A stretch of 64,000 nucleotides of DNA from Gemmatimonadaceae bacterium (lineage in GTDB: Bacteria; Gemmatimonadota; Gemmatimonadetes; Gemmatimonadales; Gemmatimonadaceae), in assembly GCA_016742275.1 (NCBI GenBank), contig JACVCD010000006.1, positions 1 through 64,000 on the forward strand. The letters are read 5' to 3'. Below, piece by piece: positions 1 to 14,489 of the stretch (the stretch's first letter is position 1; every line of letters begins with the position of its first letter). The translations under genes and the position numbers were made by a program. Under the pieces are notes generated by a model. That model had not been told where the DNA came from, searched no databases, and saw nothing but the letters and a program-made list of their open reading frames with translations.

Positions 1-234
1 CGACAGCCCCGCGGGGCCCGGCGCGGACGCCCCCGGTCGGGGAGGACCCGGCAGTACGCCGATCGGCACTTCGGTGTTGCCGAGCATGGTCTGCTCGAAG
101 TCGGTGAGTTGCGGTGCACGCGCGGCCGGAGCCGGCGAAGCAGCGGTTTCTTCCTTGAGCGACGAGAGCGGCTGTCCAGCGGCCTTGGCCGCCTGCGCGC
201 TCGCGACCAACGCGTCGATTTCGGCGGGATTCAT
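1..234 (-). CDS. fliN: Flagellar motor switch protein FliN, N-terminal part (truncated by window edge)
   Basis: Reverse-strand reading from ATG at 234: MNPAEIDALVASAQAAKAAGQPLSSLKEETAAS...LTDFEQTMLGNTEVPIGV; overlaps the FliM stop; position after fliM. Confidence 0.75.
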   Translation of the reverse strand, partial: MNPAEIDALVASAQAAKAAGQPLSSLKEETAASPAPAARAPQLTDFEQTMLGNTEVPIGVLPGPPRPGASAPGPAGLS

Positions 235-1235
235 GTGGTGGTCCGGGAGTCGGGGGTCGAAGCATTCGGCAACGCATCAACGATGCGCACCGCCAGGTTG
301 CCGTTCACGCGTCCGGCGTGACCGATAAAGCGTTCCTGCGTACCGGCACGCACGATCACGCGTGCGTCCTTGGGAATGCTGGTGGGGATGATGCTGCCTT
401 CGCTGATGTTGGCGAGGTCGCGCATCGACAACTGAAAGTCGGGAAGGCGCGCGGTGAGTGGCACCTTCGTGGCACGCAGCGCGGCTTCACTGCGCTGACG
501 CGTGATTTCGCGTTCCTGTTCGTTGGTGGTCAGCAGCGCGAGACGCTGCTGTCCGCTCGACGTGAAGAACTTGTCGAGCACCGAGAACGGAAGGCACAGC
601 AACAACAGACTGCTCACATTGCCGGTGCTGAACTCCACGTTCGCCACCAGCACGGGATCTTCACGATTGACGACCTGCAGAATTTCGGGCGACGATTCGA
701 AGCCCGTGATGTTGATGTCCATCGGGACATGGTCCTGCCAGATTTCCTGCAACAGCGCGGCGATCTTGTCGCCCACACTGCGAACCGCCATGCGCTCGAT
801 GGGCGTCAGCGCGCGCGTCAGCGCGCTGCCTGTGCCTTCGCCGCCAAACAGGCGATCCACGATGTACGTGCTGAACTCCGGGCCTACGTCAATGACACCC
901 TTCTGGCCCGTGCCCGCGATATCGAAAATGAAAGACGAGCAGGGCATCGGGAGCGACAACGTGAACTCGCCGAAGGAGAACTGCTCCACACTCTGCAGAC
1001 GGACTTCGATCTGTCCACGCACACGCGAGATGAGCCACGCTTCAAGCCCCTTCACCAGGCGCTCGTACATGGCTTCGAGCGTGCGCAGACGTTCCTTCGA
1101 CACGCGGTGCGGTCGACGGAAGTCGTACACCTGTACATCGAGTCCCTGCGTGGCAAACGTCGCCGTGTTGCGCGACGTGCCACCACCGCCCAGCAGGCGG
1201 TCGATGTCAGTTTGGGAGAGAGTTTCCGAGCTCAT
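231..1235 (-). CDS. fliM: Flagellar motor switch protein FliM
   Basis: MSSETLSQTDIDRLLGGG N-terminal CheY-binding-type motif; FliM/CheC-like middle and SpoA-like C-terminus. Confidence 0.95.
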   Translation of the reverse strand: MSSETLSQTDIDRLLGGGGTSRNTATFATQGLDVQVYDFRRPHRVSKERLRTLEAMYERLVKGLEAWLISRVRGQIEVRLQSVEQFSFGEFTLSLPMPCSSFIFDIAGTGQKGVIDVGPEFSTYIVDRLFGGEGTGSALTRALTPIERMAVRSVGDKIAALLQEIWQDHVPMDINITGFESSPEILQVVNREDPVLVANVEFSTGNVSSLLLLCLPFSVLDKFFTSSGQQRLALLTTNEQEREITRQRSEAALRATKVPLTARLPDFQLSMRDLANISEGSIIPTSIPKDARVIVRAGTQERFIGHAGRVNGNLAVRIVDALPNASTPDSRTTT

Positions 1236-1270
1236 CGCGGAATCAGGAGGAAGGGCCGCTTACGTGACGC

Positions 1271-1834
1271 TTACTGAACGACGAACTGCGGGAAGTAGAG
1301 ACTCTTGACCGAGTTCTTGCCGAAACGCGCGGTGACGGCGGTCTGCAGTTCCTTCTTGAATCCGTCGCGGTACGAGATGTCGGTGAGTTCGTCCACCGAC
1401 TTCGTGCCCAGCGCCGTGAGGATGATGTCGCGGAGTTCGGCGTCGCGATTCTTGAAGTCTTCGCCGGCCTTGGCCGAGCCCACTTCCATGGCGACGGAAA
1501 TCAGCAGAAAACGGCCGCCGTTACTGCCGGCCGGATTGAGTACGAGATTTTCGAGCAGGTAGATCGGGGCCGCCGCTGCGCCCTTACCTTCCGCACCGCC
1601 TTCACCTTCGGCGCCATGCCCGCCTTCCGCTTGAGCGCTATCGGCTGAGGCTGAGTCCGCATGAGCGACCACCGGAGTGCCCTTGCCCATTTTCTTGGCG
1701 ACCATGGGGCCGAGGAATACGGCACCGGTCCCGCCACCAACGGCGAGGCCTACGGCAACCATGCCGATCAGCATCGGCAATTTGGGCTTGGATGGGGCGG
1801 CGGCTTCTGCTGCCGGAGCTTCTTCGTTGGCCAT
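1271..1834 (-). CDS. fliL: Flagellar basal body-associated protein FliL
   Basis: N-terminal TM (LPMLIGMVAVGLAVGGGTGAVFLG), Ala/Gly linker, FliL domain (LENLVLNPAGSNGGRFLLISVAMEV); upstream of fliM. Confidence 0.85.
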   Translation of the reverse strand: MANEEAPAAEAAAPSKPKLPMLIGMVAVGLAVGGGTGAVFLGPMVAKKMGKGTPVVAHADSASADSAQAEGGHGAEGEGGAEGKGAAAAPIYLLENLVLNPAGSNGGRFLLISVAMEVGSAKAGEDFKNRDAELRDIILTALGTKSVDELTDISYRDGFKKELQTAVTARFGKNSVKSLYFPQFVVQ

Positions 1835-1874
1835 GGGAACGGTCGGACGAGGGTGAATTGGACACCCCCTATAA

Positions 1875-1915
1875 AGCAGCCCCCGTGCCAGCGTTTCGCC
1901 GGCCCGGGGGCTGTT
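1875..1915. terminator. Stem-loop between flgE and fliL (AGCAGCCCCCG ... CGGGGGCTGTT)
   Basis: 11-bp inverted repeat with one G:U pair, 19-nt loop; only a weak U-tract. Confidence 0.45.
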
Positions 1916-2061
1916 CTATTAAACCGTTAAAACACAACGCTTTACGGAGACATGTATGGCTGAGCTTGGTATCTGAACCGCCTTCCTGGACCCCGGCAAA
2001 ACCGGGCACTCCGGGCGCGGCGCGGCACCTTTTGCCTAGCCACTCTGGTCACCAGAAGCGC

Positions 2062-3591
2062 TTAGCGCTTGATCTGCATCAGCTCCTGCAGGATTTCGTC
2101 GGAGGTCGAGACGACCTTACCGTTGGCCTGGAAGCCGCGCTGGGCCACGATCATGTTCGTGAATTCCTGCGCCAGGTCGACGTTCGACATTTCCAGGGCG
2201 CCGCTGGTCATCTGCGACTGGGAGCCTTCCAGAGCGAAGCCGAGCACAGCGCCGCCGGAGTTGGCCGATTCCTGGTACATGTTGTCGCCGATACGCTGGA
2301 GACCCGACGGGTTGTTGAAGTCGGCCAGCACGATGCGGGCGAGCGGCGACGTCGTGCCGTTCGTGAAGAAGCCCGTGATGAGACCGAAACGGTCGATCGA
2401 GAAGTTCTGCAGCGTACCGGCCGTGAAGCCGTTCTGGTCACGCAGCACGGCCGTCGACGCGGTCGAGGCAAACTGCGTCAGACCATTCACGCCGCCGCCG
2501 AGCTTGAGGTCGATGCGGACCGGGTTGGCACCCGGCACGGCGAAGTTGAGCGCGGCCGTGATGTTCGTGTTCAGGATACCGGCGTTGTCGAACGTGAACG
2601 TACCGCTGTTCTCGCTCGCCGTGGCCGTATCCGGGCTCATGAAGTAGCCGACCTTGATCTGCGAGTTGAGCGGCATGTTCGCCGTGAACGTGATCTCGCC
2701 CGAACCCGGATCGAAGGTGTAGTCGCCCGGCGTGTTGTACTCGACGCCGGTGGTGCTGTACACCTTCACATTGGCCGCGAGGATCTCGTAGCCTGTCGGC
2801 GGCGTCGGCAACGTGATGTTTCCGGCAGGCGCGACACCCGCGGTACCGTTGTCCGTCTGGATATCGAACGTCTGCGCGGAAGCGATCGGATCAATCTTCC
2901 AGTCCCAGGAGTTCGGGCCGGTCTTCCACATCTGCAGCTTCACGTCGTGCTTCGTACCCTGCGAGTCGTACACGGCGATCTGCGTTTCCGTCCACGCCTT
3001 TTCGTTGATCGGCAGCGCGCGGTCGAGCGGATCATTGAAGTCGCCCTGGAACACAGGCGCCGAGGCATTCAGGTTGCCGGCGAGCACCGCTTCCGTGGTC
3101 GGATTGGCGGACACCTTCTGACCGAACGGCAGCTTGATGTCCTGGATGCCGTCCTGGATCTGGCCGTTGTCATACATGCGACCCTGCACGATGAAGCCGT
3201 TGGCCGGCGACACCAGCTGGCCGAGCGCGTCAACCTGGAAGTTGCCGGCGCGCGTGTAGAAGCTCTGGTTGCCCTTTCGCACGACGAAGAACGAGTCACC
3301 CTGAATGGCGACGTCCGTACCAAGACCCGTCGTTTCGAGGTTACCCTGGTTGAAGATCTGGTCGATGGACCCGATCTGCATACCGAGACCGATCTGGATG
3401 GGATTGATACCACCCTGGTCTCCAGGCGGACGGCTCGCGCCGGCCAGCAGCTGGGCAAAACCTTCCTTGAAGGTCACGCGGCCAGCCTTGAAGGCGACCG
3501 TGTTGACGTTGGCGATGTTGTTACCGATGACGTCCATGCGCACCTGGTTGTTGCGCAGGCCGGAGACACCAGCGTAGAGGGAACGAAGCAT
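2062..3591 (-). CDS. flgE: Flagellar hook protein FlgE
   Basis: MLRSLYAGVSGLRNNQVRMDVIGNNIANVNTVAFKAGRVTFKEGF; C-terminal VDLAQEFTNMIVAQRGFQANGKVVSTSDEILQELMQIKR. Confidence 0.96.
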   Translation of the reverse strand: MLRSLYAGVSGLRNNQVRMDVIGNNIANVNTVAFKAGRVTFKEGFAQLLAGASRPPGDQGGINPIQIGLGMQIGSIDQIFNQGNLETTGLGTDVAIQGDSFFVVRKGNQSFYTRAGNFQVDALGQLVSPANGFIVQGRMYDNGQIQDGIQDIKLPFGQKVSANPTTEAVLAGNLNASAPVFQGDFNDPLDRALPINEKAWTETQIAVYDSQGTKHDVKLQMWKTGPNSWDWKIDPIASAQTFDIQTDNGTAGVAPAGNITLPTPPTGYEILAANVKVYSTTGVEYNTPGDYTFDPGSGEITFTANMPLNSQIKVGYFMSPDTATASENSGTFTFDNAGILNTNITAALNFAVPGANPVRIDLKLGGGVNGLTQFASTASTAVLRDQNGFTAGTLQNFSIDRFGLITGFFTNGTTSPLARIVLADFNNPSGLQRIGDNMYQESANSGGAVLGFALEGSQSQMTSGALEMSNVDLAQEFTNMIVAQRGFQANGKVVSTSDEILQELMQIKR

Positions 3592-3618: not shown

Positions 3619-4434
3619 TCAAGCGCGAATCTGGGTGAGTCGGGACATCGGGACTTGTACCTTGTCGCCGATAGTCAGGATGGGGTTACCGTCTTGGTAG
3701 CGCATGCCGGTAATCCGTCCGGCCGTGTACGTCGTGGTGTCAGACCACGGGCCGCCATCCTTTGCGACCTGGAACTTGTAGGTGTATGAGCCGGGCTTAA
3801 GTGGGGGATCCCACGAGTAGTCGGCCAACTTGAACGAGTGTTGCCCCGCCTGGATGTCACCAACAAGTGCCATCCCGACGGTTTCTCCCTTGTCATTGGT
3901 CATCACGATGCGGCCGGTGCCGCTGCGTCCTGCGGTATCAATGAGGATCTCGCCATTGCCATCCTTGTCGACAAAGGCATTGTTGCCGGGCGTCACGCCC
4001 ACCTTGCCGACGGTGGCCATGGCCATCTGTCCTTCGATCAGCTGCGCGAGTTCATCGGCGCGTTCGTTCTGCGCTTCCTCGAGCGACGTGATGGCGTCGG
4101 TCATGGCGGCCTGCGCGGCCTTCGTTTCATCCATAGACTTGTTCATGGCGATGAGCTGCTCGACCGTGGAGAACTGGGCGAGCTGCGCGGCCATGTCCTT
4201 GCCGTCCATCGGATTCAGGGGATCCTGATTCTTGAGCTGGGCGACGAGCATCTTGAGGAACTCGTCGCGACCCATGCTGCCGCCGGTCGGCAACGTGCGT
4301 GGGCCGGATGGCTCCGGGTTGGCCTTGGGCGGCTCCTTTTCAGTCGGCGCGCCCGCCTTCGGTACATCCGTCGTCGGTGTGTCCGCCGTGTTGTAGCTCG
4401 GCGTGGAGAACATGCTGCGGACTGCGGTGATCAT
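3619..4434 (-). CDS. flgD: Flagellar hook capping protein FlgD
   Basis: MGRDEFLKMLVAQLKNQDPLNPMDGKDMAAQLAQFSTVEQLIAMNKSM; FlgD Ig/TUDOR-like C-terminus. Confidence 0.95.
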   Translation of the reverse strand: MITAVRSMFSTPSYNTADTPTTDVPKAGAPTEKEPPKANPEPSGPRTLPTGGSMGRDEFLKMLVAQLKNQDPLNPMDGKDMAAQLAQFSTVEQLIAMNKSMDETKAAQAAMTDAITSLEEAQNERADELAQLIEGQMAMATVGKVGVTPGNNAFVDKDGNGEILIDTAGRSGTGRIVMTNDKGETVGMALVGDIQAGQHSFKLADYSWDPPLKPGSYTYKFQVAKDGGPWSDTTTYTAGRITGMRYQDGNPILTIGDKVQVPMSRLTQIRA

Positions 4435-6695
4435 GACTCGATTCCGAAGAGGTTGAACTCCGGGCGCGGCGCGTCCTGTCGCTGCTGCCGTTCGTCGCGG
4501 GCGCGATTCGACTGCTCACGCCGTGCGTCGTCCTGGTAGTCGCGAGCGGGTGTCCGTTCCCGCTGTCCATTTCCGGCACTCTGATCCTGCGCGGTGGTCT
4601 GCGGCGCGTTGCCGATCTTCAAGGCATCACGTTCGCCACTCACCGCGCGCGCGGTGTCCGTGCCGTCCTGCGACTTCGTGGTGCTGATGCGCACGCGATC
4701 ACTCTCGAGACCATGACGTCCGAGGGCGTCCTGCAAATCAGCGGTCCGCATGCGGATCCGATCGGCGGTGGGCGCGTCGGTGGTGATCTGTGTGTTCACC
4801 GTGTTGCCGCGCACATCGATCGTGACCTTCTCCTGCGTGCCGTTCGCGTTGTCCACGTTCAGCGTCATGCGCGTGAGCGGCGTGGCCGGTGCATCATCAC
4901 GCATCTGCTGAATGTCCGACACGCGCTCGGCCTGATTGCTGCCGCTTGTGGCGTTCACCTGCGCGGCGCGCTCGGTGCCCGTCACACCGGTGTGACCCGG
5001 TGCGCTGGCCGATGCGCCGAAGGTGCCGATGGCCGACTGATCGGCGTCTCGTGATTCGCGGCCGAGTGCCTTGCCATCATTGAGCGGCTTGCCGGACGAA
5101 TCGCGTTCGCCGCGACCGAAGGCATTGCCGCTGTTCTGCTGTTCGTTGTGCGTATGGGCCGTATTGCCGAAGGCAGCCGATGCGGTCAGACCTTCACCAT
5201 TGCCGGCGGTGCGAGCGGTCGCGGTCGTGGCGCTGCTGTCAGCCACGCGCGCGACACCCGCCACACCGGCGACATTGGCAACCGATGCGACACCGCGTTC
5301 GCTGCTCGTGTTCTCACGCGGAATGCGCGATTCCACCTTGGCGCGGACCTCAGCATTGCGATCCACTGGCGCGCCAGCGCCAGGCAGTTCGAGATGTCCC
5401 GGATCCTTCATGCCGAGCGTGCGCAGACCTTCTTCACGCGCAATACGCTGGAGACGTGCAAAGCCCTGTGCGTTGTCCCACGATCCATCGATGATCACGT
5501 CCACCGCTTCGCCGCGCGTGTGCGCGGAATCGCGCGTCCACGTCACGACCGGACCCGTGCGCGTGCGGCCCTGTGCGAACAGCCAGTCCTGACGTTCCTG
5601 CGAGCGGGTGGTCTCGACGATGTCGACATCGTGACCGTATTCGTTCTTCATGCGCTCGACGACGCGCTCGACCTTGGCGCGCAGCTCGGGGCTCACGCCC
5701 TCGAGTGAGCGGTCGGCCATCGTGACGTCTTCGACAGCGGCGTTGGCCGAAAGCACACCGTGCGCATGAGCCTGCGCCTGTGCGCGACGGGACACGGCGT
5801 CGACGGCCGGTGCGGCGATGTTGGGCGACGTACCAGTGGTGCTGGTGATGTCGAGTCCGGCGGCTTCGTTGAGCAGTGCCTGCGTCGCGAGACGCGCGCC
5901 TTCCGGCGTACCGGCCTTGGCAATCAGGGCATCCAGCTGCGCGCGCGTATTGGCGCCGCGCGTGTCGCCCAGTGCCAGCAACTGTTCGAGTGAGCTGCCG
6001 CGCTTGGAGGCGACGCGGGCGAGCACATCGAGTGCGCGATCGTTGTCCATCGCCCCGATCTGACCAGCGGCCCGTGCGATGCCCTCAAGGGCGCGCGTGG
6101 TCGCATCGTCACCGCGGCGGGCATTTCGGGACTGCGCGTAGGCGTTGAGGTCGACCACATCCTTGGAACGATTGGCCGAGCGCTCGGCCGAACCCGAAGC
6201 GGGCTCGGCAGTTGTTTCCGTCGACTGTTCGCTCGTGCCCTGCTGCTGCAGAAGCCCGTAGCGCATGGCATCGGTGGTCGCCGTGGCATCAGTTGCCATG
6301 CCGGCCTGATCCGTCTCGATCATGCCCGTCTGCGCTGCGCTTTCCGCTCCATCAAAGAGGGACACGGCTTCCACTGGAGTGGAGCCCGCGGCTTCCTCGA
6401 GCAGGCGATCGACCAGCGAAGCGCTCTCTTCGGGAAGCTGCTGCAGCAGATCCGCGCGCACCTGACTTCCAGCACCGGCCAGCAGGGCGAGCAGGGCCGA
6501 GAACTCGGGACTCTTGCTGCGGATCTTCCGCGCGGCGGGCTCTTCACGTTCGGTCGTGTCGTCTGTACGACGCACATCCGAGCGACGGCCATCCGCACGA
6601 CGTGAATCAGCGGCACGCGGGGCGCGCGGCGATTCGTTGCGATTCGGTTCCGGCGCCGGACGATTCACGGCCGACATGATGTTCATGGCGCTCAC
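4431..6695 (-). CDS. fliK: FliK-like hook-length control protein with embedded M15-type peptidase domain
   Basis: Operon position before flgD (ATGA overlap); C-terminal Flg_hook-like LTRMTLNVDNANGTQEKVTIDVRGNTVNTQITTDAPTADRIRMRTADLQDALGRHGLESDRVRIS; central RSQERQDWLFAQGRTRTGPVVTWTRDSAHTRGEAVDV...DPGHLELPGAG. Confidence 0.85.
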   Translation of the reverse strand: MSAMNIMSAVNRPAPEPNRNESPRAPRAADSRRADGRRSDVRRTDDTTEREEPAARKIRSKSPEFSALLALLAGAGSQVRADLLQQLPEESASLVDRLLEEAAGSTPVEAVSLFDGAESAAQTGMIETDQAGMATDATATTDAMRYGLLQQQGTSEQSTETTAEPASGSAERSANRSKDVVDLNAYAQSRNARRGDDATTRALEGIARAAGQIGAMDNDRALDVLARVASKRGSSLEQLLALGDTRGANTRAQLDALIAKAGTPEGARLATQALLNEAAGLDITSTTGTSPNIAAPAVDAVSRRAQAQAHAHGVLSANAAVEDVTMADRSLEGVSPELRAKVERVVERMKNEYGHDVDIVETTRSQERQDWLFAQGRTRTGPVVTWTRDSAHTRGEAVDVIIDGSWDNAQGFARLQRIAREEGLRTLGMKDPGHLELPGAGAPVDRNAEVRAKVESRIPRENTSSERGVASVANVAGVAGVARVADSSATTATARTAGNGEGLTASAAFGNTAHTHNEQQNSGNAFGRGERDSSGKPLNDGKALGRESRDADQSAIGTFGASASAPGHTGVTGTERAAQVNATSGSNQAERVSDIQQMRDDAPATPLTRMTLNVDNANGTQEKVTIDVRGNTVNTQITTDAPTADRIRMRTADLQDALGRHGLESDRVRISTTKSQDGTDTARAVSGERDALKIGNAPQTTAQDQSAGNGQRERTPARDYQDDARREQSNRARDERQQRQDAPRPEFNLFGIES

Positions 6696-7450
6696 TCGTG
6701 CGACCCTCCGGTCGACTTCACGGCACCCTTCGTAATCGATGCCGCGCGCGCCGCCGGGAAGGCGGAGAGAATGGCTGCCGCCTGGCGATCGTTCATCATC
6801 GCGAGAATCGCGCGTACATCACTATCGGTCATCTGGTCGAGCACCTTGGCCGCATCCTTGGCTGCCATGGCGCCGAAAATCTTGGCGAGGCGCTGCTCGG
6901 GGAGCGCGGTCTGCAGCGCAGCGTCCCGGGCTTCCTTCACGGTGTTGGCTGCCTGCGCCGTGCTGGCAACCTGCTTGGAGTCCGGCGCGTGGTTCGCGGC
7001 CGGCGCCGTTGCCGGTGCTGCAGCGGGGCCGTGCGCGTTCTTGTCCCCGGTCTTCGCAGCAGCGTTGGCCGCAGCCATACCTTGGGCGACCGAGTTGGGC
7101 TTGGCGCCGTGATTGTTGGCTGTCGCCGACTTGATCGCCTCACGCGCGGCGGCAAGCGCACGCAGCGAATCGGCGGGAGTCATCGGTTCGGTGGACGCAT
7201 TCGCGGCCGCGTGTGCGCTGCTGTCCGCCGTGGAGTCGGCGTGCGCAGCGCTGTCGGTCGCTTCGTGCCTGTCGCCATGAGCCGCGGCACCATGTGCGGC
7301 GGCGGAATCGGGCGGCAACGTCTTCAGGCTATCGGCAATTCGCGCCGAGTCGACGGCGTACTTTGCCGAGGCCTTCATGTACGAGTACCCCGACCCGCCA
7401 CCAAGGCCGGCCAGTACTCCGATAACAATTGGGATGAGCAACTGCTTCAT
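6692..7450 (-). CDS. MotE/MgtE-N-like flagellar protein
   Basis: N-terminal TM, long Ala/His/Asp-rich linker, C-terminal RLAKIFGAMAAKDAAKVLDQMTDSDVRAILAMMNDRQAAAILSAFP (MgtE-N/MotE-like). Confidence 0.75.
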   Translation of the reverse strand: MKQLLIPIVIGVLAGLGGGSGYSYMKASAKYAVDSARIADSLKTLPPDSAAAHGAAAHGDRHEATDSAAHADSTADSSAHAAANASTEPMTPADSLRALAAAREAIKSATANNHGAKPNSVAQGMAAANAAAKTGDKNAHGPAAAPATAPAANHAPDSKQVASTAQAANTVKEARDAALQTALPEQRLAKIFGAMAAKDAAKVLDQMTDSDVRAILAMMNDRQAAAILSAFPAARAASITKGAVKSTGGSHE

Positions 7451-7953
7451 CGCGGGGATCCATCTCGATGGTCAGTGCCGTCGGCGGAAGTGCCGTTCGG
7501 CGCGTCTTTTGTCTCTGGCTTACGAGCGAATTGCAGGAGGGCGATTTCGTCCATCTGCACTCGGTCCTTCTGTGCTTCTTCAGCGCGCCAGGCTTCTGCG
7601 TGCCGTTCCTTGAGGCGATCGAGCACGCGGCGATCGCGTGCAGCGTCCTCCAGCAACGTTTTTGCCTGGTGCACACCGGCGTCGGCTTCCTTTACGAGGT
7701 CGTCGGCGACGATCAATCGTTCATCAAGAGAAGCGAGAACCGTGCCAAGCTGTTGGAGGTGCCCAACGCGTGGTCCGGCGTTCGTTGTGGAGTGGATTTG
7801 TGCGTGCGAATTCGCGCGCAATGAGGCCAGGGCGTCCTTGGCCTTCTGGGCTTCTTCGGCGGCCGACTGCGCGGCCGCGAGTTCGCGTGCCTTGGCCTGT
7901 TCGTGCTGCTCCCGCAGCTCGAGAATGCGCTGCAGTCGGAACTTGAAGCTCAC
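7447..7953 (-). CDS. fliJ: Flagellar export protein FliJ
   Basis: MSFKFRLQRILELREQHEQAKARELAAAQ coiled-coil; directly after fliI. Confidence 0.88.
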   Translation of the reverse strand: MSFKFRLQRILELREQHEQAKARELAAAQSAAEEAQKAKDALASLRANSHAQIHSTTNAGPRVGHLQQLGTVLASLDERLIVADDLVKEADAGVHQAKTLLEDAARDRRVLDRLKERHAEAWRAEEAQKDRVQMDEIALLQFARKPETKDAPNGTSADGTDHRDGSPR

Positions 7954-9323
7954 GGACGTCTCCGAACGGCCGATTCGATCTGCTCGGCGATCTGCGCCAG
8001 CGCCTGGTACGTGTCACCGTACTGCGTGGTCTCGTCAGGCCGCTGCTGTAGAAACTCCAGCACGTGGTGACGGTAGGCGATCGCGGCGTCGACATACAGA
8101 TCACTGCCGCGCTGATAGGCGCCGACCATGATCAGATCTTCTTTTTCCCGGTACGCGGCCTCCAGGCGGAGCATGGCACTGCCCGCGCGCTTCTGGACGT
8201 CGTTGGTAATGAGATCCTTGACGCGACTCTTGGAGTCGAGCACGTCGATGGCCGGGAAGTGATTTTGCGCCGCCAGGCGGCGCGTGAGCACAATGTGCCC
8301 ATCAAGAATGGAGCGGGTGGCGTCAGCCACGGGCTCGTTGAAGTCGTCACCGTCGACGAGCACCGTGTAGATGCCCGTGATGCCGCCGCGCTCACCATTG
8401 CCGGCGCGCTCGAGGAGACGCGGCAAGTTGGCAAACACGGAAGGCGGATAACCCTTGGTGGTGGGCGGTTCGCCAGTGGCGAGACCGATTTCGCGCCACG
8501 CCATCGCAACACGCGTGACCGAGTCGACCATCAGCAGCACCTGCTTGCCCTGATCGCGGAAGTACTCGGCGATAGCCGTGGCCACCAGCGCACCACGCGC
8601 GCGCACCAGCGCCGCCTGGTCACCCGTCGCCACAATCACGACCGAACGCGCGAGTCCTTCCTGACCGAGCGAGTGCTCGAGGAACTCACGCACTTCACGA
8701 CCACGTTCGCCGAGCAGCGCAATCACATTCACGTCGGCCTGCGCGTGACGCGCAATCATGCCGAGCATGGTGGACTTGCCTACGCCAGAACCGGCGAAGA
8801 TACCAACACGCTGACCACGACCAATTGTCAGCAGACCATCGATGGCGCGCACACCGGTTTCGAGCGGACGATCAATCGATTCACGCACGAGTGGATTGGG
8901 CGGTTCGGCGCTGAGCGACACACGCTCCACCGTATCCACCTTGCCCTTGCCGTCGATGGGATGGCCAAGACCATTGAGCACGCGGCCAAGGAGACCGGGG
9001 CCAACGTCAACACCGAACGTGCGGCCCAACGGCTGTACGCTCGCGCCGGCATGCAAACCATCGAGTTCGCCGAGCGGCATGAGCAGCACACTGCGCTCGT
9101 TGAATCCCACGACTTCGGCGAGCACCGAACGATCACGTGAGTGACTCGTGATGCGGCACAGTGAGCCGAGGCCGACATCAAGACCCGTAGCTTCCACCAC
9201 CAGACCAACCACGCGCGTGACCTTGCCGTAGCTGGTCAGCCGTTCTGCGCGCGCCAGACGATCGGTGAGTTGGTCGAGCGGGCTTTCTTCGCCGTTCAGA
9301 TAGTTCGCAAACGCAGCCGACAT
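7950..9323 (-). CDS. fliI: Flagellum-specific ATPase FliI
   Basis: Walker A GIFAGSGVGKST; ALLGERGREVREFLE; VLLMVDSVTRVAMAWREIGLATGEPP. Confidence 0.97.
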   Translation of the reverse strand: MSAAFANYLNGEESPLDQLTDRLARAERLTSYGKVTRVVGLVVEATGLDVGLGSLCRITSHSRDRSVLAEVVGFNERSVLLMPLGELDGLHAGASVQPLGRTFGVDVGPGLLGRVLNGLGHPIDGKGKVDTVERVSLSAEPPNPLVRESIDRPLETGVRAIDGLLTIGRGQRVGIFAGSGVGKSTMLGMIARHAQADVNVIALLGERGREVREFLEHSLGQEGLARSVVIVATGDQAALVRARGALVATAIAEYFRDQGKQVLLMVDSVTRVAMAWREIGLATGEPPTTKGYPPSVFANLPRLLERAGNGERGGITGIYTVLVDGDDFNEPVADATRSILDGHIVLTRRLAAQNHFPAIDVLDSKSRVKDLITNDVQKRAGSAMLRLEAAYREKEDLIMVGAYQRGSDLYVDAAIAYRHHVLEFLQQRPDETTQYGDTYQALAQIAEQIESAVRRRP

Positions 9324-10012
9324 CAGGCCTGGATTCCGCCGAGGCTGCGATAGGCGCGCTCGAGCGCGGTGTCGACACGACCATCGATGATGCGCTCACG
9401 TCCTTCAGTGAGGCAGCCACCGCGGCCGACATTGACATCACTGATCCAACGCAGCGCGCGCTGTGAACCGAACTCCTGTTCGATCACGCGGCGGCAGGCA
9501 TTGAAATCTTCCGGATTGACTCGGACCGTGATTTCCTGGTCGATCGGATACTGCACAATCGCGTTGGTCACCAGGTCGGCAACAAAGCTCGGGTCGGCGA
9601 CGATCTCGCGCTGCAGAATGTGCTGCGCCACGATCACCGACAGCGCGGCAATATTCTCTTCGGCGTTCGACAGCCAACGTGCTTCATGCACTGCGATGGA
9701 ATCCGTGGCTTCGCGAACAGCCTGCATGGCTGTTGCGAGCGTGCCATCGAGTGAAGCACGCGCGGCGCGCTCGCCATCGGCACGACCACGCGCATAGGCG
9801 TCGGCCTCGATACGCGTACGCTCGGCCGCCATACGCATGGCGAAGCCGGCTTCCATGGCCTCGAGCGATACGGCGGGTGTGGCGGTGACTTCGGCGGCCG
9901 CTTCCGGGCCGCCGAAGAACACGTCGGTCGCGAACTCGTCGAGCGACCACGGTGATGCGTGTGTAGCGGGCATGCGTGGTGGCTCAGATGATGACATCGT
10001 CGGTTCCTGCAC
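9323..10012 (-). CDS. fliH: Flagellar assembly protein FliH
   Basis: FliH/YscL-type C-terminus (LSVIVAQHILQREIVADPSFVADLVTNAIVQYPIDQEITVRVNPEDFNACRRVI); start may be the internal ATG at 9997. Confidence 0.88.
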   Translation of the reverse strand: MQEPTMSSSEPPRMPATHASPWSLDEFATDVFFGGPEAAAEVTATPAVSLEAMEAGFAMRMAAERTRIEADAYARGRADGERAARASLDGTLATAMQAVREATDSIAVHEARWLSNAEENIAALSVIVAQHILQREIVADPSFVADLVTNAIVQYPIDQEITVRVNPEDFNACRRVIEQEFGSQRALRWISDVNVGRGGCLTEGRERIIDGRVDTALERAYRSLGGIQA

Positions 10013-11036
10013 TCAACACGATCTCGCCTGTTTCCTCGAGCGCGCGGACCTTCGAAACGATGTCCGTCTGCGCGGCTTCGACGTCGCGCATCTTGACCGG
10101 GCCGAGGAACTCCATCTCTTCCTTGAGGCCAGCGACTGCACGCTGCGACATCGTATTCATGATCTTCTGCTTGAGGTCCGGGCTTGCGGCCTTGAGCGCG
10201 AGAGCCAGCTGCTTGACGTCCACTTCGCGCAGCAGGCGCTGCAGCGACTTGTCGTCGAGCGAGGTGAGGTCCTCGAACACGAACATGAGGTTCTTGATCT
10301 GATCGCTGAGGTGCGGATCCTTCTCCGCCACCAGGTCGAGCACTTCCTTCTCGAGCGAGGAGCTGACGAGATTGAGCACCGCGGCCACGGCCGCCGGACC
10401 ACCCACACTCGACATGCCCTGCGAGAAAGCCAGGTCGGCTTCGTTACCGATAGCGCGCTCAACGAGCGAGATCATTTCCGGCGACACCTTCTCCATGCGC
10501 GCAATGCGGAACATCACTTCGCCGCCGAGCTCAGGCTCGAATTCGCGAATGATGGCCGCGACGTGCGATGGATCGAGGTGCGCCATGATGAGTGCAATCG
10601 TCTGCGGGTGTTCACCGCGCAGCGTATTGCCCAGCTGCTGCGGATCGGCGCGACGCAGACGACCGAAACGATCGCTGTCGGCGAGCTGACCCTGAATGCG
10701 CTTGAGGATCTGCTGCGCCTTGGCCGGTCCGAACGCCTTTTCGAGCACGTCCTTGGCGAATTCCACACCACCGGTGCTGATGGAGTCCACGCCGAGCGTG
10801 GTCTCCAACCACTCGGCGAGAATAATTTCCACCGTGGCGGGCGGCACACGATCGAGCTGCGCCATTTCCAGCGCAACGATTTCTGCTTCTTCTGGGTGCA
10901 GGCCTGACGTAAGCTTGGCTGCGTGTTCGGCACCGATCGCCATGCACACGATCGCCACTTTCTGGCGACCGGTGAGACGATCAGGAGCCCAACGATCGGG
11001 CGCGGCGTTCTTCGCGAGGGCGATCATGTTTGCCAA
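9984..11036 (-). CDS. fliG: Flagellar motor switch protein FliG
   Basis: LTGRQKVAIVCMAIGAEHAAKLTSGLHPEEAEIVALEMA; EHPQTIALIMAHLDPSHVAAI; C-terminal charged motor domain. Confidence 0.96.
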   Translation of the reverse strand: MANMIALAKNAAPDRWAPDRLTGRQKVAIVCMAIGAEHAAKLTSGLHPEEAEIVALEMAQLDRVPPATVEIILAEWLETTLGVDSISTGGVEFAKDVLEKAFGPAKAQQILKRIQGQLADSDRFGRLRRADPQQLGNTLRGEHPQTIALIMAHLDPSHVAAIIREFEPELGGEVMFRIARMEKVSPEMISLVERAIGNEADLAFSQGMSSVGGPAAVAAVLNLVSSSLEKEVLDLVAEKDPHLSDQIKNLMFVFEDLTSLDDKSLQRLLREVDVKQLALALKAASPDLKQKIMNTMSQRAVAGLKEEMEFLGPVKMRDVEAAQTDIVSKVRALEETGEIVLSAGTDDVII

Positions 11037-12644
11037 TTACTGACGGAGCCAGTTGCGGGTCACTCGGAGCGCCGCATCAGGACGCTGCTCGACAGTGGCG
11101 ATAGCTTGTTCACGCTCAGGCGTGGTCGGCGGGGGCGGGAGACGGATGGCGCGGCGCTGCTCCTCGAGGAGTGCGGCTTCGTCGATCATCTCTTCCTGTT
11201 CCATCGAATGCGCTCCTGACTGGAGGGCGGCCTGCATCTGCGCGCTTGCCGGGAGTTCGGCATACTGTGTGCCGGCGGCCAGGGCATTTGTCTGCGCGGC
11301 GGCGATCTGCTTGGACTTCTTCGGCCGCAGCACGAACACCATCACCAGCGCCACGATCATCAACGCCACGATGGCGGCGATCGCAACAACCGGCTTGGGG
11401 TTCGACTGAATGCGGCCGATCATATCCTGCGGAACCGGCGTGGTGTCGGCCTTGGCAACAACCGGCTTCGGCATATCGAACGGCGCGCTCACCACGGACA
11501 CCATGTCGCCGCGCGTGCTGTCGACACCGAGTGCCGTACGCACCAACGATTCGATCTGCGCGAGTTCAGCTGGCGTGCGCGGCGTGATGACGGGATCCGG
11601 CACATTGCCCGCGCTGTCCGGCGCAGCAAAGGTCGCCTTGTCAGCCACGAGCACTGCAACCGTCAGCTTCTGCACATTGCCGATCGCGCCGCTGAACGTT
11701 TCCACGCTCTTCGTGTTTTCGTACGTCACCACTGACTGCGTGTAACCCGCACCCTGCTGCGGTGTGCTCGGCGCGACTTCCGACTTCTGTTCATTGAGAA
11801 TGGCCTGACGTTCGGGATCGACTGCCTGCGTGGTGCGCTCGACCTTGTTGAAGTTCATCGAAGCGGAGACCTGCACACGCGCGTTGCCTGTGCCAACCAG
11901 ACTCGAAAGCAGATCGTTCGCCTTCGCTTCCATGTGTCCTTCGACTTCCTTCTGCACCGCGAGCTGACGGCTGGTCAAACCAGCGACTGAACCTTCATCC
12001 TGCATGGTGAGTGCACGGCCACGCTCGTCGACCACGGTCACGTGTTCCGGCGTGAGTCCACCAACCGATGCAGCCACGAGGCTCGCAATGCCCTGAACTG
12101 TTTCAGCAGCCGGCGTGTTGCCATTGGCCATGCTCAACGTCACTGACGCCTTGCTCGGCCGCTCGTTCTGCTTGAACATCTGATCGTCTTCGAGTGCGAG
12201 GTGCACCTGGACGGTCTTCACATTCTGCATCTTGCCGATGGTGCGCTCGAGTTCTCCCTCGAGCGCGCGGCGGTAGTTCACTTTCTGCGTGAAGTCCGTC
12301 ATGCCCCACGACGGCTTATCGAACAGCTCAAGACCAGGACGACCGGCGTTTGGCATTTCGCCCGCAGCGAGATCCACACGCGCGCGCGCCACATCCTTGC
12401 TCTGCACCATGATGGTGGTGCCAGCCTGATCGAGCTCGAAGGTGATGCCCGATTCCTGCAGCTTGTCCGTCATGGCCTTCACACTTTCCACCGGCACATT
12501 GGCGAACAACGGCACCATGACCGGGCGTGTGGCCCACTGCGACACGTAGTACACGCCGGCCGCCACCATGAGACCAATGGCGACGATGGCGGTTTGACGT
12601 GGGCCGCCGAAGCGGCTGGTGATTGATTCGAAGAGGGGATTCAT
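11037..12644 (-). CDS. fliF: Flagellar M-ring protein FliF
   Basis: MTDFTQKVNYRRALEGELERTIGKMQNVKTVQVHLALEDDQMF; two TM segments; YscJ/FliF architecture. Confidence 0.96.
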   Translation of the reverse strand: MNPLFESITSRFGGPRQTAIVAIGLMVAAGVYYVSQWATRPVMVPLFANVPVESVKAMTDKLQESGITFELDQAGTTIMVQSKDVARARVDLAAGEMPNAGRPGLELFDKPSWGMTDFTQKVNYRRALEGELERTIGKMQNVKTVQVHLALEDDQMFKQNERPSKASVTLSMANGNTPAAETVQGIASLVAASVGGLTPEHVTVVDERGRALTMQDEGSVAGLTSRQLAVQKEVEGHMEAKANDLLSSLVGTGNARVQVSASMNFNKVERTTQAVDPERQAILNEQKSEVAPSTPQQGAGYTQSVVTYENTKSVETFSGAIGNVQKLTVAVLVADKATFAAPDSAGNVPDPVITPRTPAELAQIESLVRTALGVDSTRGDMVSVVSAPFDMPKPVVAKADTTPVPQDMIGRIQSNPKPVVAIAAIVALMIVALVMVFVLRPKKSKQIAAAQTNALAAGTQYAELPASAQMQAALQSGAHSMEQEEMIDEAALLEEQRRAIRLPPPPTTPEREQAIATVEQRPDAALRVTRNWLRQ

Positions 12645-12663
12645 CGGGAGTGTGCTGGCCAGC

Positions 12664-12978
12664 TCAGGACTGCATGCTGATCACGGAGCGATACGCTTCA
12701 ACCATCTTGTTGCGCAGCTCGATCATCATGTCGAGTGCGATGCCGGCTTCTTCGCTGGCTGCCATGACCTGATGCAATTCGACGTTTTCGCCATTGGCGA
12801 AACGCTGGACGAGATCACCCGCATAGTCGCGGGTATCGGAGACTTCGTTGATGGCGCGCGTCAGTGTCTTGCCGAACGAGTTGTCGCTCGTGCCGGTGAC
12901 CGGCACCTGCACGCTCTGTCCGCGGTCCTGTCCGAATTCGGGGAGGCTGCGGGTAAGAAGATCGAGACGGGTTTGCAT
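12664..12978 (-). CDS. fliE: Flagellar hook-basal body complex protein FliE
   Basis: MQTRLDLLTRSLPEF...ENVELHQVMAASEEAGIALDMMIELRNKMVEAYRSVISMQS; the supplied 223-aa ORF is over-extended, start assigned to ATG at 12978. Confidence 0.9.
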   Translation of the reverse strand: MQTRLDLLTRSLPEFGQDRGQSVQVPVTGTSDNSFGKTLTRAINEVSDTRDYAGDLVQRFANGENVELHQVMAASEEAGIALDMMIELRNKMVEAYRSVISMQS

Positions 12979-13024
12979 GGTCTGGGCGAGTGAGCGAGAA
13001 GTCGACGAAGAATTCAGTTGCGAA

Positions 13025-13417
13025 TCAGGCGCGTACGTCCAGACGGACACCGCGTGCCGCGGGCGGCGTCGGCGGCGTGGTCGTCGCAGCCTTGTAACGT
13101 CCGTAGGTGAGCGGGCCCATGTTCGCGGTCTTGGCGAAGAAGTTCCGCTCTTCGGTCGTGAGCATGCTCCAGAACGCCGGATCGGTGCCAGCCGGTGCTT
13201 CGGAGGGAACCGGTGACTGCGTAGCCTGCTGACCAGCGATCGGCGCCTGCGGCTTGAGTGCATTCGCGTTTGCATTCGTCCGCGCCAATCCCTGCTGGTT
13301 GGCAAGCGACGCGCGATCCAGACCGGCCTGTCCATTCGACGAAGCGCGCGTGCTATCGCTGCGCGTGGCGCCGGTATTGGGAAGCAGAGGCGAGTTGTTG
13401 ATGCCGTTGATGCTCAT
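13025..13417 (-). CDS. Hypothetical protein between fliE and flgC
   Basis: MSINGINNSPLLPNTG...TDPAFWSMLTTEERNFFAKTANMGPLTYGRYKAA; Ser/Ala/Gln-rich N-terminus and compact C-terminal motif; longer start at 13540 possible. Confidence 0.6.
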   Translation of the reverse strand: MSINGINNSPLLPNTGATRSDSTRASSNGQAGLDRASLANQQGLARTNANANALKPQAPIAGQQATQSPVPSEAPAGTDPAFWSMLTTEERNFFAKTANMGPLTYGRYKAATTTPPTPPAARGVRLDVRA

Positions 13418-13575
13418 GGGACCGTTGATGACGAAAGCGAGTGCGAAGACGAAAGCGAGAACAGCGTGGCGAAGAAGAGGCGCGGCGGGTCGGGGGCCGT
13501 TGTGCTGTCGGAGAGGAGGAGGAGGAGGAAGTGACCCCACACCGATCCCCGAACCCGCCGCGATAATCGTTTACA

Positions 13576-14184
13576 TCAGATGTCGAGTGCGGCGCGGAGC
13601 ATCGACTTGGCAGTCTGAAAAACCGCCGCGTTGGCTTCGTAGATGCGCTTGGCATCCATGAGCTTCACGAGCTCCTGCGTGGTATCGATGTCGGGGTAGC
13701 GCACGTAGCCGTTGGCGTCGGCATCCGGATGACCGGGCTCATACACGAGGCGACCTTCGCCCTGGTCTTCGGCCACACCAGCCACACGCACACCGTATTC
13801 ACCGCCCATCACACCATCAGGACCACCCGTTGTGGGCAGCACCGGTACTTCAATCGTGCGCGGCGCATCACCGCCGCTGATTGCTGTGCCAGTGCCCGAC
13901 ACGAGACCCGCGCCAGTCGAGGCAGCAGGATCGGGAAGGCCGAGGTTGAACGTGGCGTTGTTGGCATTGGCCGCTTCGAGCACGACTTCGCGGCGCTTGT
14001 AGGGCTGACCGTCGGCACCACGGGTGACGTCGGCGTTGGCAATGTTCTGCGCGATCGTTTCCATGCGCTGGCGCTGAGCGGAGAGTCCGCTGGCGGCGAT
14101 GCCCATGGAGCGGAACATCGGGCGCATGACCTGCTGGTTCGGCACCGGCAGAAGGCCCGGCGACTTGATCGGTCCGATCGGCAT
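13576..14184 (-). CDS. flgC: Flagellar basal-body rod protein FlgC
   Basis: MRPMFRSMGIAASGLSAQRQRMETIAQNIANADVTRGADGQPYKRREVV; VRYPDIDTTQELVKLMDAKRIYEANAAVFQTAKSM. Confidence 0.95.
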   Translation of the reverse strand: MPIGPIKSPGLLPVPNQQVMRPMFRSMGIAASGLSAQRQRMETIAQNIANADVTRGADGQPYKRREVVLEAANANNATFNLGLPDPAASTGAGLVSGTGTAISGGDAPRTIEVPVLPTTGGPDGVMGGEYGVRVAGVAEDQGEGRLVYEPGHPDADANGYVRYPDIDTTQELVKLMDAKRIYEANAAVFQTAKSMLRAALDI

Positions 14185-14489
14185 CAGCCGCCGCCTCCGC
14201 CACCCTTGATGGCAGTGCGCAGGCTGGCATAGGTCTTTTCGAGCAGGCGCGACGTCGCCAGGTACCGCAGCTGTTCGTCGGCCAGCGCGACCATCTCGTC
14301 TTCCACATTCACCGGGTTGGCAGCTGTACCGCCATTGCCGGTCCGGGCTTCAAGAGCAAAGCCATCACCGTTCTGGAGCGTCGCCTTGGAGACGCGATCC
14401 GCGATTCCACGCGAGCGATCAGCGCTCTGATCGAGCGCTGACTTCAGCGACGTCGCGCGGGTGGTGCGATCGATGAGTCCGAAGAGCAT
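14184..14489 (-). CDS. flgB: Flagellar basal-body rod protein FlgB
   Basis: MLFGLIDRTTRATSLKSALDQSADRSRGIADRVSKATLQNGDGF; TGATG overlap with flgC. Confidence 0.87.
   Translation of the reverse strand: MLFGLIDRTTRATSLKSALDQSADRSRGIADRVSKATLQNGDGFALEARTGNGGTAANPVNVEDEMVALADEQLRYLATSRLLEKTYASLRTAIKGGGGGG

Follow-up and report, generated by a model that had tools for sequence, protein, structure and literature searches.

A FliK flagellar ruler with an internal M15 peptidase domain in Gemmatimonadota, probably working like the hydrolase of dual-domain FlgJ

Comparison with known flagellar and wall-cutting proteins

In the dual-domain FlgJ, the rod cap is joined to a GH73 or SLT hydrolase, and hence an exported flagellar protein bears a wall-cutting domain. 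The same holds for the protein described here (M15-FliK), and the task is likely the same; however, the carrier is FliK, the enzyme is a peptidase rather than a glycosidase, and FlgJ is separate and short. In the cases of SltF in Rhodobacter and BB0259 in Borrelia, wall cleavage is supplied where FlgJ is single-domain (PMC8517470), as it would be by M15-FliK. Both are separate proteins and lytic transglycosylases, whereas the enzyme here is part of the ruler. FlgJ of Borrelia is single-domain, and its flagellum therefore needs the separate lytic enzyme to cross the wall (PMC8517470).

Ordinary FliK (PF02120, T3S4) shares with the present protein the operon position before flgD, the Flg_hook C-terminal domain, and a low-complexity N-terminal part and tail, but the present FliK has in addition a conserved M15 peptidase, placed after the N-terminal part and before the switch domain. 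The Ply500, LysB4, ChiX, LysECD7, RB49 and T5 endolysins share with this peptidase the predicted fold, the H-x6-D ... D-x2-H site, and the RSxxxQ..L..QGR block. However, the M15 endolysins and L-Ala-D-Glu peptidases are free enzymes or are linked to wall-binding domains, whereas here the domain is situated inside an exported ruler, at about 30% identity. To our knowledge, no FliK with an enzyme domain has been known. A literature search of partial coverage found no FliK bearing a peptidase domain or a lytic one, and the genome survey was centred on Gemmatimonadota. M15-FliK appears to be a previously undescribed form of FliK, which probably functions as the hydrolase does in dual-domain FlgJ.

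The fliK locus

In the window (the whole stretch of 64,000 nucleotides that was analysed), fliK is an ORF of 754 residues on the minus strand (4431–6695) with a GTG start at 6695, encoding the M15 domain between the N-terminal region and the FliK switch domain. The operon, all on the minus strand, runs in the order flgB, flgC, fliE, fliF, fliG, fliH, fliI, fliJ, a motE-like gene, fliK, flgD, flgE, fliL and fliM. The upstream part, comprising fliJ, fliI, fliH, fliG, fliF, fliE, flgC and flgB, is located at 7447–14489. The motE-like gene directly before fliK encodes an MgtE_N-domain protein (6692–7450; Pfam MgtE_N, E 4.5e-9), and the gene directly after it is flgD for the hook cap (3619–4434; Pfam FlgD, E 1e-23). 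fliK overlaps both neighbours by 4 bp, namely the MgtE_N gene ending at 6692 and flgD starting at 4434. The downstream flagellar block (231–3591) is constituted by flgE (2062–3591), fliL (1271–1834) and fliM (231–1235). FliF was identified by profile, and the names other than FlgD, MgtE_N and FliF were assigned to the ORFs from sequence and gene order. The relatives are Gemmatimonadota, and in them the spacing from fliF to fliK is the same as in the window.

The C-terminal switch domain (Flg_hook, T3S4) occupies 4605–4934 (minus strand), with the Flg_hook match at 4665–4865. The isolated domain matches Flg_hook at E 7e-6 and 26.2 bits, below the curated cut-off of 29.8. The same profile matches 44 of 48 homologues, and its cut-off is exceeded by 19 M15-carrying or other family members, among 25 genomes over the cut-off. 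The model of the switch domain has a pLDDT of 72.9, i.e. moderate confidence, and its two best PDB matches are the PscP switch domain (5cuk) and FliK_C (2rrl), both with a probability of 1.00 but with E-values of 0.009 and 0.035, respectively. With the Flg_hook C-terminal domain and the place in a flagellar operon between fliJ/motE-like and flgD, the ORF is FliK, in agreement with the preliminary description, which had called it FliK-like. That description also had the ORF end in the Flg_hook-like domain; the domain is indeed C-terminal, but a low-complexity tail of ~77 residues extends beyond it. Export by the flagellar T3SS and the setting of hook length would be expected of this protein as a member of the FliK family.

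The possibility that the genome encodes a further, normal FliK at another place was considered and rejected, the PF02120 matches elsewhere being non-significant. An NCBIfam search with the window FliK yielded nothing useful. Shortly after the M15 domain lies a short Ala/Val repeat, VASVANVAGVAGVARVA (residues ~466–490; window ~5226–5300, minus strand), which was found at the same place in nearly all M15-FliK proteins read.

Fold and active site of the M15 domain

The M15/LAS peptidase domain spans residues ~329–437 (5385–5711, minus strand), and the M15-like peptide quoted in the preliminary description is present there. For the window domain alone, Pfam returned Peptidase_M15_3 at E 0.0032 (18.0 bits against a cut-off of 23.2) and VanY at E 0.012 (15.8 bits against 25); these cut-offs serve annotation and do not describe a biological property. 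For the family the matches are significant: at E ≤ 0.1, the homologues match VanY in 21 of 21 cases and M15_3 in 20 of 21, with best E-values of 7e-5 to 8e-5. Furthermore, a profile of the FliK-M15 family matches Ply500 and LysB4 in the PDB at E ~3e-9. The AlphaFold2 model of the domain, with a pLDDT of 86.6, matches LysECD7, Ply500, ChiX, LysB4 and the RB49 endolysin in Foldseek at E 8e-7 to 5e-5 and a probability of 1.00. Most of the best structural matches are named L-Ala-D-Glu peptidases, and carboxypeptidases of the VanX/VanY type rank behind them.

Four residues constitute the predicted active site. The first zinc ligand, H392 (codon 5520–5522), is situated in the motif SAHTRGEAVD, followed by the second ligand, D399 (codon 5499–5501); D431 (codon 5403–5405), at the position of the catalytic acid/base, and the third ligand, H434 (codon 5394–5396), belong to the DPGH motif, all codons being on the minus strand. 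We take these roles to be those of the corresponding residues in Ply500. The H-x6-D spacing and the conserved block align with Ply500 and LysB4. By profile and predicted fold, the middle of FliK is an M15 (LAS) peptidase domain, closest to the L-Ala-D-Glu endolysins Ply500, LysB4 and ChiX, and the M15 identity proposed earlier is borne out by the family profile and the AlphaFold2 model. The predicted fold and the His/Asp/Asp/His site, whose absence would have spoken against the preliminary description, are both present and are conserved in the orthologues. The domain is probably an L-Ala-D-Glu endopeptidase, and we infer from sequence and model that it would act as a peptidase on peptidoglycan with that bond specificity.

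The Pfam scores of the window domain, lying below the curated cut-offs, count in favour of a chance resemblance or an assembly chimera. Such an origin has a negligible probability against the strong profile and structure matches and the recurrence of the same architecture and gene position in 63 genomes from many assemblies; a chance motif or chimera is contradicted by this survey.

Distribution and constraint in Gemmatimonadota

The survey covered 298 genomes spread over the phylum, and matches at E < 1e-35 were taken as strong. Such M15-FliK matches occur in 63 of the 298 genomes, corresponding to 63 of the 81 that bear FliF, and none was found in a genome of the survey without FliF. FlgI is present in 80 genomes and FliF in 81, and both occur in all 63 genomes with M15-FliK. 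Wherever the ORF is not truncated at the end of a contig, M15 and the FliK C-domain share one reading frame; some rows of C-domain matches were secondary matches before M15 and were excluded from the coordinates. Weak matches elsewhere in the phylum (E > 1e-12) were kept apart from the count, and those inspected are located in phage-like neighbourhoods (L073 and L085) or outside flagellar loci (L071, L072 and L080). The FliKs of G187 and G203 were given no call, their fliF-bearing contigs ending before fliK, and in G169 FliK is represented by just a fragment where a contig begins. A scan for close relatives across 84,980 species returned only FliKs of the Gemmatimonadota type, one of them from a MAG titled Kuenenia, and one Treponema match in another context. 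The fusion put forward in the preliminary description holds, and it represents a stable feature of Gemmatimonas and most of its flagellated relatives rather than a one-off. In the tree, the M15 domains of FliK form one clade (support 0.71) separate from the remaining M15 sequences collected, among them viral and prophage ones, which suggests that M15-FliK arose by a single fusion.

Two MAGs show peculiarities of their own. One titled Candidatus Kuenenia stuttgartiensis (L017, CALQGY020000005.1) contains a fliK of the Gemmatimonas type, and its title is probably wrong. PLM2.Bin16 contains two different M15-FliK copies (L018 and L020), which would reflect either a mixed bin or the presence of two flagellar systems.

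Across wide divergence, 62 of the 63 genomes retain the complete set of four active-site residues: D399, D431 and H434 in 63 of 63, and H392 in 62. The remaining protein, in G171 (L036), has Gln for the first zinc His with the rest conserved, which may be real or a sequence error. In G040 (L079, 4833–6554, minus strand), FliK contains a decayed M15 remnant with the active site lost, and the flagellar genes and a short FlgJ are kept. Between the window FliK and its close relative L001, dN/dS (Nei-Gojobori, one ortholog pair) is 0.07 in M15, 0.25 in the switch domain, and 0.28–0.33 in the N-terminal part, linker and tail; in this one pair, no other part of FliK is as constrained as M15.

These data bear on whether M15 might now be non-catalytic, a folded or unfolding spacer that alters the ruler length or slows export to aid the specificity switch. 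FliK does act through its length and slow passage (PMC13344023), and the lost site in G040 and the His-to-Gln change in G171 would be tolerated in a spacer. However, a spacer would not require zinc ligands and a catalytic Asp to be retained in 62 of 63 genomes and would leave the dN/dS of 0.07 unexplained, making such a role very unlikely.

FlgJ and other wall enzymes

The window genome encodes one FlgJ of about 106 residues, consisting of the rod-binding domain only. FlgJ as the hydrolase carrier in this genome was rejected, the protein being short and having no hydrolase domain; the contrast with a FlgJ-borne hydrolase drawn in the preliminary description holds. PF10135 matches only this separate short FlgJ (G000:C10) and not FliK. 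Hence M15-FliK may work like the hydrolase of FlgJ but is not a FlgJ, which would have PF10135 in the same protein. A search with one sequence for SLT-type enzymes in the window and the second flagellar contig found none; other hydrolase families were looked for there by eye only.

FlgJ is short in all M15-FliK genomes checked (n = 21: the window genome, 19 others and G171). In the more distant sister class f11 (L237, L093 and L240–L243), FlgJ has a C-terminal SLT lytic transglycosylase domain in 6 of 6 genomes, and none of the six has an M15-FliK match. Short FlgJ with M15-FliK versus FlgJ-SLT without it looks like an exchange of carriers, but it is not a rule. In family f2 (L086–L092 and L244–L247), eight genomes have flagellar genes and a short FlgJ; no M15-FliK match was found in these eight, and four f2 FliKs read directly are without M15. 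The f2 family, with neither arrangement, and G040, with its decayed M15 and short FlgJ, indicate that flagella can do without this activity on FliK.

Proposed role during rod growth

The analysis directly shows the fusion, the predicted fold, the conservation of the active site, the position of the gene, its occurrence together with flagella, and the short FlgJ; we infer catalytic activity, the bond cut, and the place and time of action. In the reading we prefer, at a probability of about 0.6, a genuine FliK that has acquired M15 in its middle serves as a delivery device for a periplasmic wall peptidase during rod growth. FliK would be exported as single molecules via the growing rod. With the rod tip in the periplasm, each molecule would exit the channel, and its M15 domain would refold and bind zinc. 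The refolded domain would then cleave the peptide stems of peptidoglycan at the assembly site, easing the passage of rod and rings across it. After the opening of the outer membrane, FliK molecules exported subsequently would exit the cell, and wall cutting would terminate itself. The hydrolase of dual-domain FlgJ would in effect have been transferred to FliK. Counting against a periplasmic role, most FliK export at a finished hook goes outside the cell.

A further form of this proposal, on which the odds stand about even, makes the ruler itself the wall-opening enzyme. Export would meter peptidase molecules to the rod tip for as long as the tip stays in the periplasm and no longer. Wall opening would thereby start with export and end with passage of the outer membrane, and the hydrolase of FlgJ would have been replaced by a shift of the activity to another export substrate. 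In Salmonella, FliK is secreted during rod and hook growth, including into the periplasm, where a FliK-beta-lactamase fusion (FliK-Bla) is active (PMC13344023); thus, an enzyme attached to FliK is able to travel through the channel, fold again and work in that compartment.

The same secretion continues while the hook grows, with the tip then outside the cell (PMC13344023), and the nearest relatives of the FliK M15 domain are phage endolysins; both would suit an active wall peptidase acting outside the cell, in which FliK leaving the hook tip cuts the wall of neighbours or debris and the ruler is a secreted lysin too. However, the outer membrane shields intact Gram-negative neighbours, and the match with hydrolase-less FlgJ would be a coincidence. 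Moreover, a flagellum exports FliK in low numbers, which would make for poor dosing of a secreted lysin, and this external action is quite improbable.

Somewhat less improbable, though still unlikely, the peptidase may serve another flagellar step than rod-tip passage, e.g. making room for the P-ring or stator, or trimming the wall round the finished rod. The same sequence evidence applies to it, with nothing here that separates the two, and the release of FliK extends over the period in which the rod is completed and the P/L rings are awaited (PMC13344023); however, given the short FlgJ, a FlgJ-like role is simpler. The preliminary description had suggested a coupling of wall remodelling to hook-length control. 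Such a coupling may exist, but the evidence agrees more closely with local wall opening in rod growth than with hook length being linked directly.

Flagellar wall crossing in bacteria with a hydrolase-less FlgJ is only partly understood, and one lineage appears to place a wall peptidase on its ruler. M15-FliK makes testable when and where FliK is released in rod growth, whether rod passage needs wall cleavage, and how an exported ruler tolerates an enzyme domain. Its existence also suggests that a flagellar wall hydrolase can shift between export substrates in evolution.
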